Shown here: one piece after another, positions 7,902-26,137 of the stretch
How the letters are laid out: every line of letters starts with the position of its first letter
Position numbering within the stretch: the first letter of the stretch is position 1
Assembly (NCBI GenBank): GCA_025061835.1
Contig: JANXAC010000002.1
Location: 101,185-145,688, forward strand
DNA: 44,504 nt
Origin: Spirochaetota bacterium
GTDB taxonomy: Bacteria; Spirochaetota; Brevinematia; DTOW01
Direction of reading: 5' to 3'
Position numbers and translations under genes: made by a program
The notes under the pieces: model-generated
Databases searched by the model: none
What the model was told of the DNA's origin: nothing
What the model saw: only the letters and a program-made list of their open reading frames with translations

Positions 7902-9956
7902 ATGGTAGATGAGAGTTTAATAAAAAGATCCTTTCAAGGATCTTTGAAATACAAATTCCTCTTTCTAGTTCTAGTATTATCAACATCACCATTCCCTATA
8001 CTCACCTATTTTGAACAGATCAATATCAACAATCAAACAATATCAAACATAAAAGAAGGACAGGTTTTCAGATACGATATAGTATCTCAAATAGATGTAT
8101 CTTTAACAAATACATTTGATATTGAAACTGCAAGGTCTAGTTTCCCAACAATACTAAAGCGAACCATATCAATAGAAGAAGACATATACAGAATTTCCAA
8201 GTTTGTTGAGGTTTTAGAGCAGGACAATAGATTGTTATTGCTACCAAAGCTCCCTAAAGTTTTGATGACAAACTTTTTTGCTCGGTTTCTGAAAGAGACC
8301 GCAATCATTGATAGTAATGAGATGATAAACATCAACAATCTATCAAATTTCAAAGTCATCTATGGAACTAATATCTACATTCCTAAAAAAGTTATATTTC
8401 TACCACTTAATTCAGAAGAGGATGTAAAGAGTGCTATTGAAGCAGTATTCGGTAAAACATTCGTTCCAATACTCAAAGATGAAATGTCTTATGTTATAGC
8501 AAACTCTATAATACCTAACACTGTATTTGATAGATCACTTCAAGAAGAAGAGTTCCAAAAATACCTTAGTACAAAAAACATACCTTTTGAGATAATGATA
8601 AAGAAAGGTGACAAAATAGTCAAAGAGGGTGAGTTGATAACAAAAGAAAGATTAGGGATAGTCAGAGAATACTTCAATGAATTGAACTCAAAGCTAATAT
8701 GGAAAACAATCTTTATTGAAATATTGATACTAATTCTCGTAGTTTTCTCAATATTTCTTTTGTCAATATTCAAGGAAGTAAAAAACAGAAACATATTGAC
8801 GATAAACTCTCTTTTCCTTATGTCTTCAATGTATCCACAATTTTATCTCAAAGGGACTTTGGGAGATGCAGTTTTATTCGTCTCACTTTTCACTTCGTTT
8901 TCTATAGTTAATAGCCTAATATGCGGAAGAAAATCAACAATTGTCATAGGAATATTCTATACGGCAACAATATTTCTGGTAATTTATAGTAGTTACATCG
9001 TGGCTATTTACTGGTTTATTTTGATAGTAGTCGCATCAATGATGTCATACAGGATAAAGAGAAGATCCAGTTTCGTGATAGTTGCTACTGTAATATTTCT
9101 GGTAAGTTTTGGTATTTATTCGTTGATACATTTTGTTGAATCATTTGAATTTGGAAACTTAATATTATCAGGTGGTTTATCATTTGTAAGTGTATTTGGG
9201 AATGTATTGCTTGTATTTCTTATATTACCTCTCTACGAATACTTCTTCAGAATTGCAACACCATTCAAGCTTTATGAGTTATCATCACTTGACAATCCTT
9301 TGCTCAAAATGCTTTTAGAAAGGGCTCCAGGAACATACTATCACTCTCTGAATGTTAGCATACTTGCAGAAGCGTGTGCAAACGAAATAGGAGCAAACTC
9401 TCTGCTAGCAAAAGTTGGAGCGCTGTATCACGATGTAGGAAAGATTGAGAATGCCGAATACTTTACAGAAAACATTGGTGGTAAGACAAGAGAAGATGTA
9501 AATATCTATAGATATGCAGAGATAATAAAGGAACATCCAAACAGAGGTGTGGATCTTGCCAAAAAATACAGATTGCCGATTGAGATTGAAAGGATAATGC
9601 TAGAACATCATGGTGGAGGACTGATACTTTACTTCTATAACAAAGCACTTAAAGAAAACCCAAATGTTGATGAAAGACTGTTCAGGTATCCTAACTATAA
9701 ACCAACTTCAAAAGAGTCAAGCATCATTTTTATATGTGACAAAATTGAAGCTACAGTTAGATCTCTAACTTCTAACAAGAACATTGATTTTCAAAAGATC
9801 TCCGATGAGATTGATAATATAATATTAAGACATACTTTGAGTGAGGAACTGTCTATGAGTAATTTAACACTACAGGATATGAATAAAATCAAAAAAGCTA
9901 TAAAAGAAACATTTAAGTATATACTACACCAGAGGATAGAATATCCGAAGAGTTAA
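7902..9956 (+). CDS. 7TM-HD family cyclic-di-AMP phosphodiesterase (PgpH/YqfF-like)
   Basis: Predicted membrane phosphodiesterase that hydrolyses c-di-AMP. Architecture: a first membrane segment near 17-34, a long extracytoplasmic domain to about residue 260, a block of seven hydrophobic segments (about 265-460), then a cytoplasmic HD domain. The HD domain opens with ERAPGTYYHSLNVSILAEA, has GALYHDVGK (H510, D511), and continues with ENIGG, KEHPNRGVDLA, MLEHHGGG and FICDKIEATVRSL, matching PgpH and YqfF in order. The 684-residue length is usual. It is co-transcribed behind murC with a 2-bp spacer, which fits the known link between c-di-AMP and cell-wall or turgor control. The gene ends 5 bp before the stop of the convergent Fe-ADH-like gene. 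Confidence 0.93.
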   Translation: MVDESLIKRSFQGSLKYKFLFLVLVLSTSPFPILTYFEQININNQTISNIKEGQVFRYDIVSQIDVSLTNTFDIETARSSFPTILKRTISIEEDIYRISKFVEVLEQDNRLLLLPKLPKVLMTNFFARFLKETAIIDSNEMININNLSNFKVIYGTNIYIPKKVIFLPLNSEEDVKSAIEAVFGKTFVPILKDEMSYVIANSIIPNTVFDRSLQEEEFQKYLSTKNIPFEIMIKKGDKIVKEGELITKERLGIVREYFNELNSKLIWKTIFIEILILILVVFSIFLLSIFKEVKNRNILTINSLFLMSSMYPQFYLKGTLGDAVLFVSLFTSFSIVNSLICGRKSTIVIGIFYTATIFLVIYSSYIVAIYWFILIVVASMMSYRIKRRSSFVIVATVIFLVSFGIYSLIHFVESFEFGNLILSGGLSFVSVFGNVLLVFLILPLYEYFFRIATPFKLYELSSLDNPLLKMLLERAPGTYYHSLNVSILAEACANEIGANSLLAKVGALYHDVGKIENAEYFTENIGGKTREDVNIYRYAEIIKEHPNRGVDLAKKYRLPIEIERIMLEHHGGGLILYFYNKALKENPNVDERLFRYPNYKPTSKESSIIFICDKIEATVRSLTSNKNIDFQKISDEIDNIILRHTLSEELSMSNLTLQDMNKIKKAIKETFKYILHQRIEYPKS

Positions 9957-9961
9957 AACTC

Positions 9962-11128
9962 CTAAAGCGCTGCTTGAAGAATAGCATTTATCTCATTTCT
10001 ATTCGCAGGTCGTGGTAATAGTGCCATAAAATCATACCTTGACGATATATCTGATATCTTGTCAATTTGCTTTTCGTCAAAGTATTCTATTTCTGAGAGC
10101 CTGAGTGGTATATTAAGGTCAAGTAGTAGTTTTCTTATGGACTCTGCAGACTTTATTGCCGCTTCTATGACGGTTATATCTTGTATCTTTTCACCTAAAG
10201 CCATCGCAGTCTGTATGAGCTTGCCTGGAACTGAAGTTAGGTTGTAGTCAATTATATGCGGGAATATCACAGAAGACACTCTCTCTGAAGGTATATCCAA
10301 AATAGAATTCACAGCCTGTGCGATTGAAGTTGATAGACCTGGTGAGCTTAGGGAAACAGATATACTCGCCATTACACCAGCGTAACACAAATTTTGAATA
10401 ATATTTATATTACTAGGTTCATTTATAAACTTCTTTATATTTACATAGAATGTTTCTATAGCCTTGTACGATAGTGCATCTGATATAGGAGTTGATCCTC
10501 TTGATATGAAAGCATCAAAAGCTACAGCCATAGCATCTACTGCAAGTGTGCCTATGTAATACGGTGGCAAAAACGATATTAAAGATGTATCAAATATCAC
10601 GGCATCAGCATAAGAATACATATCGCTATATACTGTCTTATAGCCTACATCCTTATCATAGACAAAACAAGATTTTGATAAACCTGGAACAATACCAAAT
10701 GTTATCGGAACCTCTATATAAGACACTCGCTTTCTTCTAAACTGTGTATAGCGCTTCTTGAAAACATCATCCGATGACAAAATCTTATCATATATTGACG
10801 CTACAGTCTTGGCAACACTCAATACATGATATCCACCTACACCAACTATAATATCAGGTCTAGTAGATTGAACTATATCTTTGAGGTTATCTATCTTTAT
10901 CTGATTGTTAGTGCTTCTCTCAAGTTCATCATAAATCAATACCTCATCAGTGAAAACCTTTATACTACTCTCTACCCTCTCACCAATCTTGTTATCTGAT
11001 ATATACTTAGAGTTTTCCAAGACAACAACAACTCTCTTACCCAACTTATCACAAAATTCGCCTATCCTGTTGTCTATGTCATTACCTATTATTACATTCG
11101 AGGGAACATAATATTCAAACAACGGCAT
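9962..11128 (-). CDS. Degenerate iron-containing alcohol dehydrogenase-fold protein
   Basis: 388 residues with the fold of group III (iron-containing) alcohol dehydrogenases, seen from the order of blocks, but the catalytic motifs are lost. The nucleotide motif GGGSxxD reads VGGYHVLSVAK (98-107). PTTxGTGSE reads PITFGIVPG (141-149). Of the four metal ligands only the Asp remains (D198, in VDAMAVAFDA): the expected His residues are V202, T267 and S281, and the conserved His near 271 is Gln. The sequence is otherwise well conserved (RGSTPISDALSYKAIE, ASISVSLSSPGLS, IFPHIIDYN), so this is not a decaying gene. A non-catalytic or rewired role is likely. It lies 6 bp behind the membrane-protein gene, in one operon. 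Confidence 0.8.
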   Translation of the reverse strand: MPLFEYYVPSNVIIGNDIDNRIGEFCDKLGKRVVVVLENSKYISDNKIGERVESSIKVFTDEVLIYDELERSTNNQIKIDNLKDIVQSTRPDIIVGVGGYHVLSVAKTVASIYDKILSSDDVFKKRYTQFRRKRVSYIEVPITFGIVPGLSKSCFVYDKDVGYKTVYSDMYSYADAVIFDTSLISFLPPYYIGTLAVDAMAVAFDAFISRGSTPISDALSYKAIETFYVNIKKFINEPSNINIIQNLCYAGVMASISVSLSSPGLSTSIAQAVNSILDIPSERVSSVIFPHIIDYNLTSVPGKLIQTAMALGEKIQDITVIEAAIKSAESIRKLLLDLNIPLRLSEIEYFDEKQIDKISDISSRYDFMALLPRPANRNEINAILQAAL

Positions 11129-11134
11129 CTTAGA

Positions 11135-12262
11135 CTACCTAAAGAAAGAGACCTTCTTCTTTAACTCTTTGGATACCTTTACATCATTCTCAACAAGATT
11201 CTCAAAAAATTTTAAGTTTTCCTCTGTCGTTCTTACAAGTAGGTTAGATACGGCCATATCCGATCTCTGCAATGGTTGATCTTTAATGATCTTCTTTATC
11301 TCATCTATCATTTTCTTCTTCAGTTCTGAAGATTTCTTGAGTTTTAAAACTATATTCCTATTTATGTAGAAAAGAATAACAATAATACCTATAAGGATAG
11401 ATATTTTCAAAGATACATATATCCACCTAGTCCAACTCGGCTCAGGTATAACAAAACCTATATCTAGTGACTCGTATTTTAAAACCTTCTGGCTTAATGT
11501 TCTACCAAAAAGCGATATATACTCTGACCCGATATTCTCTAGCAAATACTCTTTAGGAACACTTGTTGATGAATACACTATATCCTTATCAAGTGAAATA
11601 TAGAATAGAGCAAAATCATCTTTTGAACTGCCTAGTATATGTTCGAAAAACTTGTTTTTATCAATATAAATAACCAAAAAACCATCTATGAAATCCAGAT
11701 ATTTTGACAACTTTCTTACTTTAAGAATGTAATCCTTATAATGTTCCACTGTATCAGTTGATAACAGAAACTTTCTGAAATCCTCATTACTTGTGCTAAC
11801 ACCTAACGAGAATATCTCTATAAACTTTGACGAGTATATTGAAAAACCGGAATAGAAGTCCTCGTAGAAATAGTTTTTAAATGTTTCTTTTAGTATTTCT
11901 GATGGAAATGTGTTAGGTATGATCCAAGTTTCAAACAAGGGATTGTTAAGGAAAAGATTTATAGAGTTCTCAATTGAACTGAATTCCGAATGAAGCCTAT
12001 CAACTATGGTCTTAGGTAAAACAGAATACTTGTAAGAATAGCCATCATCCGCTATGAAATCTAAAGCACTTTGAAAAGGTGAATACACTACTCTCAATGT
12101 CTGATAACTCAATAAGTAATCACTCAAATCAATAAGGGTATTCCTTACATTATCAGGCAGAAACATAGGTAACCTGTCAGTCTTAGCAAGATATATGACA
12201 ACAACTATAAGAATTATAGTTATCAAAGTATATTTGCTTACCTGATACAACACATACTTCAT
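11135..12262 (-). CDS. Two-TM sensor-like membrane protein, unknown
   Basis: 375 residues: membrane segment 1 at about 11-26, a ~250-residue extracytoplasmic domain, membrane segment 2 at about 280-300, and a ~75-residue basic cytoplasmic tail rich in lysine (LKLKKSSELKKKMIDEIKK). The layout is that of a Cache-type chemoreceptor or sensor kinase (for example FIDGFLVIYIDKNKFFEHI and FALFYISLDKDIVYSS), but no HAMP, kinase, GGDEF or methyl-accepting domain follows. The family is not identified. It is the first gene of a unit with the degenerate Fe-ADH protein. The ATG at 12262 has no Shine-Dalgarno; a promoter -10 box ends six bases upstream, so the mRNA may be leaderless. Confidence 0.75.
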   Translation of the reverse strand: MKYVLYQVSKYTLITIILIVVVIYLAKTDRLPMFLPDNVRNTLIDLSDYLLSYQTLRVVYSPFQSALDFIADDGYSYKYSVLPKTIVDRLHSEFSSIENSINLFLNNPLFETWIIPNTFPSEILKETFKNYFYEDFYSGFSIYSSKFIEIFSLGVSTSNEDFRKFLLSTDTVEHYKDYILKVRKLSKYLDFIDGFLVIYIDKNKFFEHILGSSKDDFALFYISLDKDIVYSSTSVPKEYLLENIGSEYISLFGRTLSQKVLKYESLDIGFVIPEPSWTRWIYVSLKISILIGIIVILFYINRNIVLKLKKSSELKKKMIDEIKKIIKDQPLQRSDMAVSNLLVRTTEENLKFFENLVENDVKVSKELKKKVSFFR

Positions 12263-12268
12263 ACTTAT

Positions 12269-12297
12269 ATGATAATCGGAACGATAGAATTTTTCAA
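12269..12297 (-). promoter_or_regulatory. Promoter, probably giving a leaderless mRNA
   Basis: Reverse-strand TTGAAA (12297-12292), a 17-base spacer and TATCAT (12274-12269). Only six bases (12268-12263) separate the -10 box from the ATG at 12262, and there is no Shine-Dalgarno, so transcription would begin at or next to the start codon. Confidence 0.65.
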
Positions 12298-24997: not shown

Positions 24998-26137
24998 ATG
25001 CTAGAGGCGAAAGAATTATTTTTAAAAACTATAGACCATAAGTTCATATCATCCAATTACTTGGGGGACTTAGAAAATGTATATAAACGCTTTAATGAGA
25101 CAGGACCGGTGGCAATTCAAGACAATATAAGTTTGTTTAGAGAAACAACGAAAGTCGTATTCGGCATAGAAGCGGATGACCAAGAAATAATAGAACACTG
25201 GACTAATATACTAAATCTCAAATCAAATATGCCTAATTACGACATAAGGATTATAGCATTTGACTACTTCTTGAACAGTAAAGTGTTGGAGAATCCTAAA
25301 ATAATGGAAATGGACAGGTTTGTGAATATGCTAGAGATAATGTTCCAAGACCCAAAAACCTATGCCTACAACTACAATATGATGAAGATTCTAATTAACT
25401 ATGAAACTGAGAAAGCAAGGAGATATGGTGGGTATTTCTCTTTACTAATTATGGATTTGGATAACTTTAAGTATTACAACGATACTTATGGTCATCAATT
25501 CGGTGATGAGATACTAGAAGAGTTTTCCAAGATAGTACTCGGTTGTATAAGGCGATCAGACCTTCTGTTTAGATATGGAGGTGATGAATTCGTTGTTTTT
25601 TGCCCTGAAACTAAGAGGATCGGTGCAAGAGTAGTTGCAGAAAGGATAAGGGAAAGCACTGAACTCTTCTTCTCCAAAAGAAACCTCAATATAACAACAA
25701 GCATAGGTATATCGGTATTTCCTATTGATGGAGACAGTTTTGAGGATTTGCTAAACATAGCCGACAAAATGCTTTACTTCTCAAAATCACGAGGCAAAAA
25801 CAGAATAACTGACATATTTGATTATGTTGATGAAAACGATAGAAGGAGATTCCCTAGAATACAGCCGAAACATCCTTCTTCTATCTCTTTGAAAATAGAT
25901 GGTATAACATTTGACTCTACGATAATTGATATAAGCAAAAAAGGAGTATCAGTAAAGATAGACCCTTCAATCAACATAAGTGGTGATAGTATTATACTAC
26001 ATAAGATAGTATTAGGTGAAAGTGAATATTTTCTAGACATTCCTGTAAAAGTAACTAGAAATAATGATGGATTACTAGGGATTGATTTTAGCGAAAATAA
26101 GATACTAGAAACGCTTATATACCTGTTTGATAAATAA
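24998..26137 (+). CDS. Diguanylate cyclase with C-terminal PilZ domain
   Basis: 379 residues predicted both to make and to bind c-di-GMP. Residues 1-125 are a helical region of unknown type. The GGDEF domain (about 135-270) has the metal motif MDLDNFKYYND, the inhibitory I-site RRSD (185-188) and the active site GGDEF (194-198). The C-terminal PilZ domain (about 282-375) has RRFPR (283-287, the RxxxR motif) and DISKKG (311-316, D/NxSxxG). Both active and binding residues are intact. No membrane segment or signal peptide. It is preceded by a strong promoter with almost no leader. It converges on the second moxR gene, and their stop codons abut with no spacer. Confidence 0.93.
   Translation: MLEAKELFLKTIDHKFISSNYLGDLENVYKRFNETGPVAIQDNISLFRETTKVVFGIEADDQEIIEHWTNILNLKSNMPNYDIRIIAFDYFLNSKVLENPKIMEMDRFVNMLEIMFQDPKTYAYNYNMMKILINYETEKARRYGGYFSLLIMDLDNFKYYNDTYGHQFGDEILEEFSKIVLGCIRRSDLLFRYGGDEFVVFCPETKRIGARVVAERIRESTELFFSKRNLNITTSIGISVFPIDGDSFEDLLNIADKMLYFSKSRGKNRITDIFDYVDENDRRRFPRIQPKHPSSISLKIDGITFDSTIIDISKKGVSVKIDPSINISGDSIILHKIVLGESEYFLDIPVKVTRNNDGLLGIDFSENKILETLIYLFDK

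Follow-up and report, generated by a model that had tools for sequence, protein, structure and literature searches.

A probable pseudoenzyme family of Spirochaetota, related to iron alcohol dehydrogenases, with a likely tie to flagellar gene control

The ADH-like gene and its locus

In the window, that is, the entire 44,504-nucleotide stretch of spirochaete DNA analyzed here, an open reading frame free of frameshifts encodes a 388-aa protein related to iron-containing alcohol dehydrogenases (Fe-ADHs; hereafter, the ADH-like protein), and the frame is open in all relatives from the same genus and family (Table 1; start codons were picked mechanically). That the protein belongs among the iron ADHs is clear from both its fold and its domains: the Pfam families Fe-ADH (PF00465, 2.4e-17) and ADH_Fe_C (PF25137, 1.2e-27) both score over their cut-offs, the AlphaFold2 model built from 52 relatives has a pLDDT of 89 and a pTM of 0.89, and a Foldseek comparison of this model yields a TM score of 0.88 to 1,3-propanediol oxidoreductase (3bfj). 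The nearest solved relatives are catalytic Fe-ADHs with about 22% identity, and the whole fold, the length and both Pfam domains are common to the window protein and the group III ADHs, such as 3bfj and lactaldehyde reductase FucO. An earlier note on this DNA, made from the letters alone, had read the fold as intact outside the active site, and this reading holds.

Of the Asp and three His that bind the metal in catalytic Fe-ADHs, the alignment with these enzymes finds D198 alone in the window protein. Opposite V202, T267 and S281, catalytic Fe-ADHs from this phylum carry H (or Q), H and H, respectively, as expected from the claim of the earlier note that three of the four ligands are replaced. 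The alignment with group III ADHs that it had called for agrees, the catalytic comparators keeping the ligands and the window protein lacking the three His. The nucleotide-binding motifs GGGSxxD and PTTxGTGSE are both missing from the window protein as well, with PITFGIVPG in place of the latter, exactly as previously read, and GGYHVLS in place of the former. Here, the loss of the loop stands and its register is corrected by one residue, so that the Asp corresponds to S104, not L103.

Comparison of the window protein with sn-glycerol-1-phosphate dehydrogenase (NF002022), likewise suggested, gave 31.6 bits against a cut-off of 413, with the match limited to the N-terminal part. The protein is covered by no NCBIfam equivalog, which fits the earlier statement that no family of this kind has been described: the best model, ErcA (NF041833), reaches 112.1 bits against a cut-off of 550, and ErcA is also the best NCBIfam match for all 52 family members scanned. 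Judged by its sequence, the window protein is probably not a dehydrogenase of known type.

Table 1. Coordinates of the ADH-like gene, its altered sites and neighboring features in the window
Feature	Position	Strand	Basis
ADH-like pseudoenzyme, 388 aa	9962..11128 (stop codon included)	minus	ORF, Pfam, alignment, AlphaFold2
Metal ligands 1 and 2: D198 retained, V202 replaces His	10523..10537	minus	alignment columns; coordinates via codon numbers
Metal ligand 3: T267 replaces His	10328..10330	minus	alignment
Metal ligand 4: S281 replaces His	10286..10288	minus	alignment
Remnant of the GGGSxxD dinucleotide loop: G98-G-Y-H-V-L-S104	10817..10837	minus	alignment
Remnant of PTTxGTGSE: P141-I-T-F-G-I-V-P-G149	10682..10708	minus	alignment
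Upstream gene; its 375-aa product has no Pfam match and two hydrophobic segments (residues ~3-35 and 278-308)	11135..12262	minus	
Promoter-like block TTGAAA-N17-TATCAT with CCGATTA inside, 5' of the 375-aa gene	12269..12297	minus	conserved in three genomes of the genus
fliA, sigma28 of the window genome	31143..31970 (G000:C2:132435-133124)	plus	

The ADH-like gene starts 6 bases after the gene for the 375-aa protein, and the two are probably in the same operon. In our sample, the latter gene occurs only in the window's genus and evolves faster (dN/dS of 0.19-0.27); its product possibly has an extracytoplasmic part. The promoter-like block in front of this gene pair looks sigma70-like, and a sigma28 promoter for the window operon, sought with the flgM-trained matrix described below, was not supported (78th percentile). 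In the window genome, flgM, the gene for the anti-sigma28 factor, is not directly upstream of the ADH-like gene; it lies on the same strand of the same contig, some 12 kb off (G000:C2:99494-99643). With the ADH-like gene thus placed behind a membrane-protein gene and at a distance from flgM, and no clear sigma28 promoter seen in the window's family (f1), its timing there may have changed. The window also contains several genes implicated in cyclic-nucleotide signaling, namely those for a response regulator with an HD_5 domain (82-1587), a 7TM-HD protein (7902-9956) and a GGDEF-PilZ protein (24998-26137).

The ADH-like family across Spirochaetota

Matches to the window protein, mostly full length, were found in 58 of 60 relatives, with the identity falling from 83-86% in the genus and 70% in the family to 33-38% in most of the class and about 22-36% beyond it. 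The contig search with the single protein reached the genus and family only; the survey of distribution, made within Spirochaetota, used a profile of the family that detected matches in 349 of 393 genomes at E<=1e-10, a count that takes in catalytic Fe-ADHs in some genomes.

The search for homologues with the same substitutions, which the earlier note had proposed, yielded 64 relatives without the metal site across the phylum, so that the window protein is not a single case. A His is found in none of the 64 at ligand 3, in two at ligand 2 and in two at ligand 4, where the residue is mostly K, S, R or Q, and no relative has two of the three His together; ligands 1, 3 and 4 are kept in all 21 catalytic Fe-ADH comparators from the same phylum. 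The NAD motifs are absent from all 64 inspected relatives and present in the 21 catalytic paralogues. This pattern of ligand loss is far beyond chance. In the phylogenetic tree, the ligand-less relatives are split from the catalytic Fe-ADHs of the phylum by one branch (SH-aLRT 99), with the window protein on the ligand-less side, beside its class; the root of this tree is not known, so that the description of the group as one clade presumes a root among the catalytic proteins. As far as sequence comparison goes, the descent of the family is shown to be mainly vertical.

Estimates of dN/dS for the ADH-like gene in the genus and family are in the range of 0.04 to 0.11; these values are rough because dS is high (1.3-2.7) and yet clearly below 1. 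Thus, the ADH-like gene is under strong purifying selection although the catalytic residues are lost, in agreement with the earlier suggestion of selection for a role other than that of a dehydrogenase. Across the relatives, there is wide variation in the residues that line the metal and NAD sites and conservation in the C-terminal helices; the catalytic proteins do not share the family's conservation of D158, E322, A324, E329, R332, R343, R373 and L384. The ADH-like group of Spirochaetota, without the metal site and the NAD loops and distinct from the phylum's catalytic Fe-ADHs, is a phylum-wide family, probably of pseudoenzymes, and not a local oddity.

Linkage to flgM and sigma28-type promoters

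Inspection of the neighborhoods of 55 relatives identified two recurrent upstream families, which are, by sequence, RsmI (16S rRNA methyltransferase) and FlgM, the identity of the latter being confirmed by Pfam PF04316 at the same places. Linkage was counted by searching 80 genomes for the FlgM and FlhA families, re-annotating the loci and comparing the coordinates. Of the 62 genomes with both genes, 49, including the very diverged G023 and G141, have flgM directly upstream of the ADH-like gene and on the same strand, with a median gap of about 76 bases (53 pairs), and the common gene order is rsmI-flgM-ADH-like. The locus tags of Treponema denticola agree with the rsmI-flgM order: TDE0200 is annotated as a tetrapyrrole methylase, as is RsmI (PMC3914990), and TDE0201 is FlgM (PMC9481697). 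In the other 13 genomes, which belong to the window's class (f1-f5), f14, f32 and one genus of f22, the ADH-like gene is relocated.

A gene for a SpoU/TrmH-type methyltransferase follows the ADH-like gene in Treponema-like groups (an inferred label). Examination by eye revealed a LarB-like gene (AIR carboxylase family) after the ADH-like gene in several families (L037, L047, L086, L102, L103), a bactofilin-like gene directly 3' of it in f9 (L104, L105) and, in class relatives of the window (L081, L083, L084, L093), hexose-1-phosphate uridylyltransferase-like and AEC-type transporter-like genes beside the moved gene.

The ADH-like gene is present in 62 of the 72 genomes with FlgM and in none of the 8 without it (p ~1.5e-6, uncorrected and with few independent losses). 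Nearly all flagellated spirochaetes have it. By the Pfam FlgM family alone, 12 genomes counted as FlgM-less (G025 being taken as positive); a phylum-specific FlgM profile found diverged flgM genes in G068 and G216 and, weakly, in G040 and G050, after which the statement that the gene tracks FlgM was cut to its being found only where FlgM occurs. The five genomes of f49 lack FlhA, FlgM and the ADH-like gene and have catalytic Fe-ADHs only; f36 has FlhA, but FliA does not reach the cut-off, and FlgM and the ADH-like gene are both missing. Genomes lacking both FlgM and the ADH-like gene contain rsmI; therefore, the ADH-like gene does not track rsmI, which was ruled out as a functional tie.

Several lineages (G068, f25, f44, f47, f53, G211 and G146) have lost the ADH-like gene while keeping flgM and sigma28; the gene is therefore not essential to flagella. 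The deletion can be clean, with a trmH-like gene directly after flgM in L195 and rsmI and flgM without the ADH-like gene in L196, which indicates that the ADH-like protein is an accessory factor. In G380 (L159:5201-6157), what stands between flgM and the trmH-like gene is an eroded ADH-like gene, encoding 318 aa with 35 bits against the family profile; this copy is an intermediate toward loss.

A site that fits the plain consensus TAAA-N14-16-GCCGATAA at 10 or more of its 12 positions stands upstream of 76% of the flgM genes; the share is 5% for other genes and 3% for rsmI. Training on 66 regions upstream of flgM gave a matrix with the motif TAAAGTTT-N11-GCCGATAA, whose median distance to the start codon is about 24 bases. 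The matrix threshold of 7.1, set at the 95th percentile among 621 control genes, is exceeded by 90% of the flgM genes, a figure that is partly circular because the same genes trained the matrix; the ADH-like genes were outside the training set. Only 2 of the 55 ADH-like genes adjacent to flgM exceed this threshold, as against 16 of the 24 relocated ones (Fisher p ~4e-9, not corrected for relatedness). Hence, the genes that follow flgM lack a promoter of their own, whereas those that departed usually have one. Relocated genes with such a promoter, mostly 26-38 bases from the start, come from f3, f4, f5, half to most of f14, genus g26 of f22 and single members of f1 and f2. This contrast is the strongest evidence that the family belongs to the sigma28 regulon.

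A possible role in flagellar gene control

Taken together, the data make it reasonably likely that the ADH-like protein is a sigma28-regulon pseudoenzyme of Spirochaetota that is tied to flagellar gene control and has a protein-binding role, and thus probably an undescribed flagellar or motility protein. Under this scenario, the binding of metal and NAD by a copy of a group III (iron) ADH would have been lost ahead of the diversification of the phylum, and this copy would have become tied to flagellar gene control. The protein would be made with the late flagellar genes and, with no hydrophobic segment found in it, would act in the cytoplasm, where the conserved C-terminal helices may bind a protein partner in the FlgM/sigma28 checkpoint; alternatively, it could hold or chaperone another late flagellar protein. 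The likeliest partners would be FlgM, FliA or a late flagellar protein. Because the cleft varies and the residues specific to the family are conserved, the protein probably works through the surface of its C-terminal helices. The earlier note had proposed a binding or sensing role: the variability of the cleft weakens sensing through it, and, together with the conserved C-terminal helices and the linkage to flgM and sigma28, points to protein binding rather than to metabolite sensing.

Enteric bacteria and Bacillus have flgN and other genes after flgM, which share with the ADH-like gene its usual position behind flgM and, probably, sigma28 control; FlgN is a small helical chaperone that is unrelated to the ADH-like protein in fold and size. 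In most genomes, the ADH-like gene shares its probable transcription unit and its promoter type with the spirochaete FlgM/sigma28 checkpoint (TDE0201/TDE2683 in T. denticola). Among the papers searched, we found none on the ADH-like gene or its T. denticola locus, and no mention of the protein in connection with this checkpoint; co-transcription data may exist in others. According to a review, T. denticola FlgM stabilizes sigma28 (FliA) and promotes rather than represses flagellin expression, and its deletion lowers flagellin (PMC12655853). If FlgM stabilizes FliA as this account has it, an extra partner in the switch is plausible. More tentatively, the ADH-like protein could be an ancestral, undescribed component of the FlgM/sigma28 checkpoint that directly binds FlgM, FliA or a late flagellar protein and helps to explain the atypical FlgM of T. 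denticola.

It appears rather unlikely that, instead, the protein is a metabolite sensor or ligand binder in which a small molecule is still bound in the former cleft and reported to a partner, in the manner of ErcA of Pseudomonas (PA1991), a regulatory protein that likewise has the ADH fold. ErcA is described as an ADH-like protein in the regulation of ethanol use, and ErcA/YiaY as an Fe-containing ADH whose gene adjoins that of a histidine kinase for ethanol use (PMC12997753); the ADH-like family adjoins flgM instead. ErcA is the nearest named model, and the product of the neighboring gene in the window is a possible membrane sensor, but this neighbor is restricted to the window's genus in the sample, and the residues of the metal and NAD sites are too variable for one conserved ligand.

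Somewhat less probable still is that the gene is a passenger of conserved synteny between flgM and the trmH/spoU-like gene, with a non-flagellar job, for example, in RNA methylation or the cell envelope. The adjacency counts are not independent because gene order is inherited, and the neighboring rsmI and SpoU/TrmH-like methyltransferase genes are housekeeping genes; however, rsmI is retained without the ADH-like gene where FlgM is missing, and the relocated copies bear sigma28-type promoters that a passenger would not need. An enzyme of new chemistry, with a metal-free active site or another site on the same fold, would account for the purifying selection, the well-kept predicted fold and the conserved charged residues (D158, E322, E329, R332, R343, R373), but we consider it improbable given that these charges are mostly C-terminal, with no conserved polar set at the metal and NAD positions, and that the usual neighbors are regulatory or housekeeping rather than metabolic genes. 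Decay of an ADH into a pseudogene, for which the lost catalytic residues and the eroding copy in G380 might speak, is ruled out for practical purposes by the low dN/dS and the intact frames throughout the phylum.

The ADH-like gene is likely annotated as an iron-containing alcohol dehydrogenase in many spirochaetes. The protein is probably no dehydrogenase, and metabolic reconstructions that count the gene as one would therefore be wrong. In a phylum with flagella inside the cell envelope, the ADH-like protein is a strong candidate for a missing motility factor.
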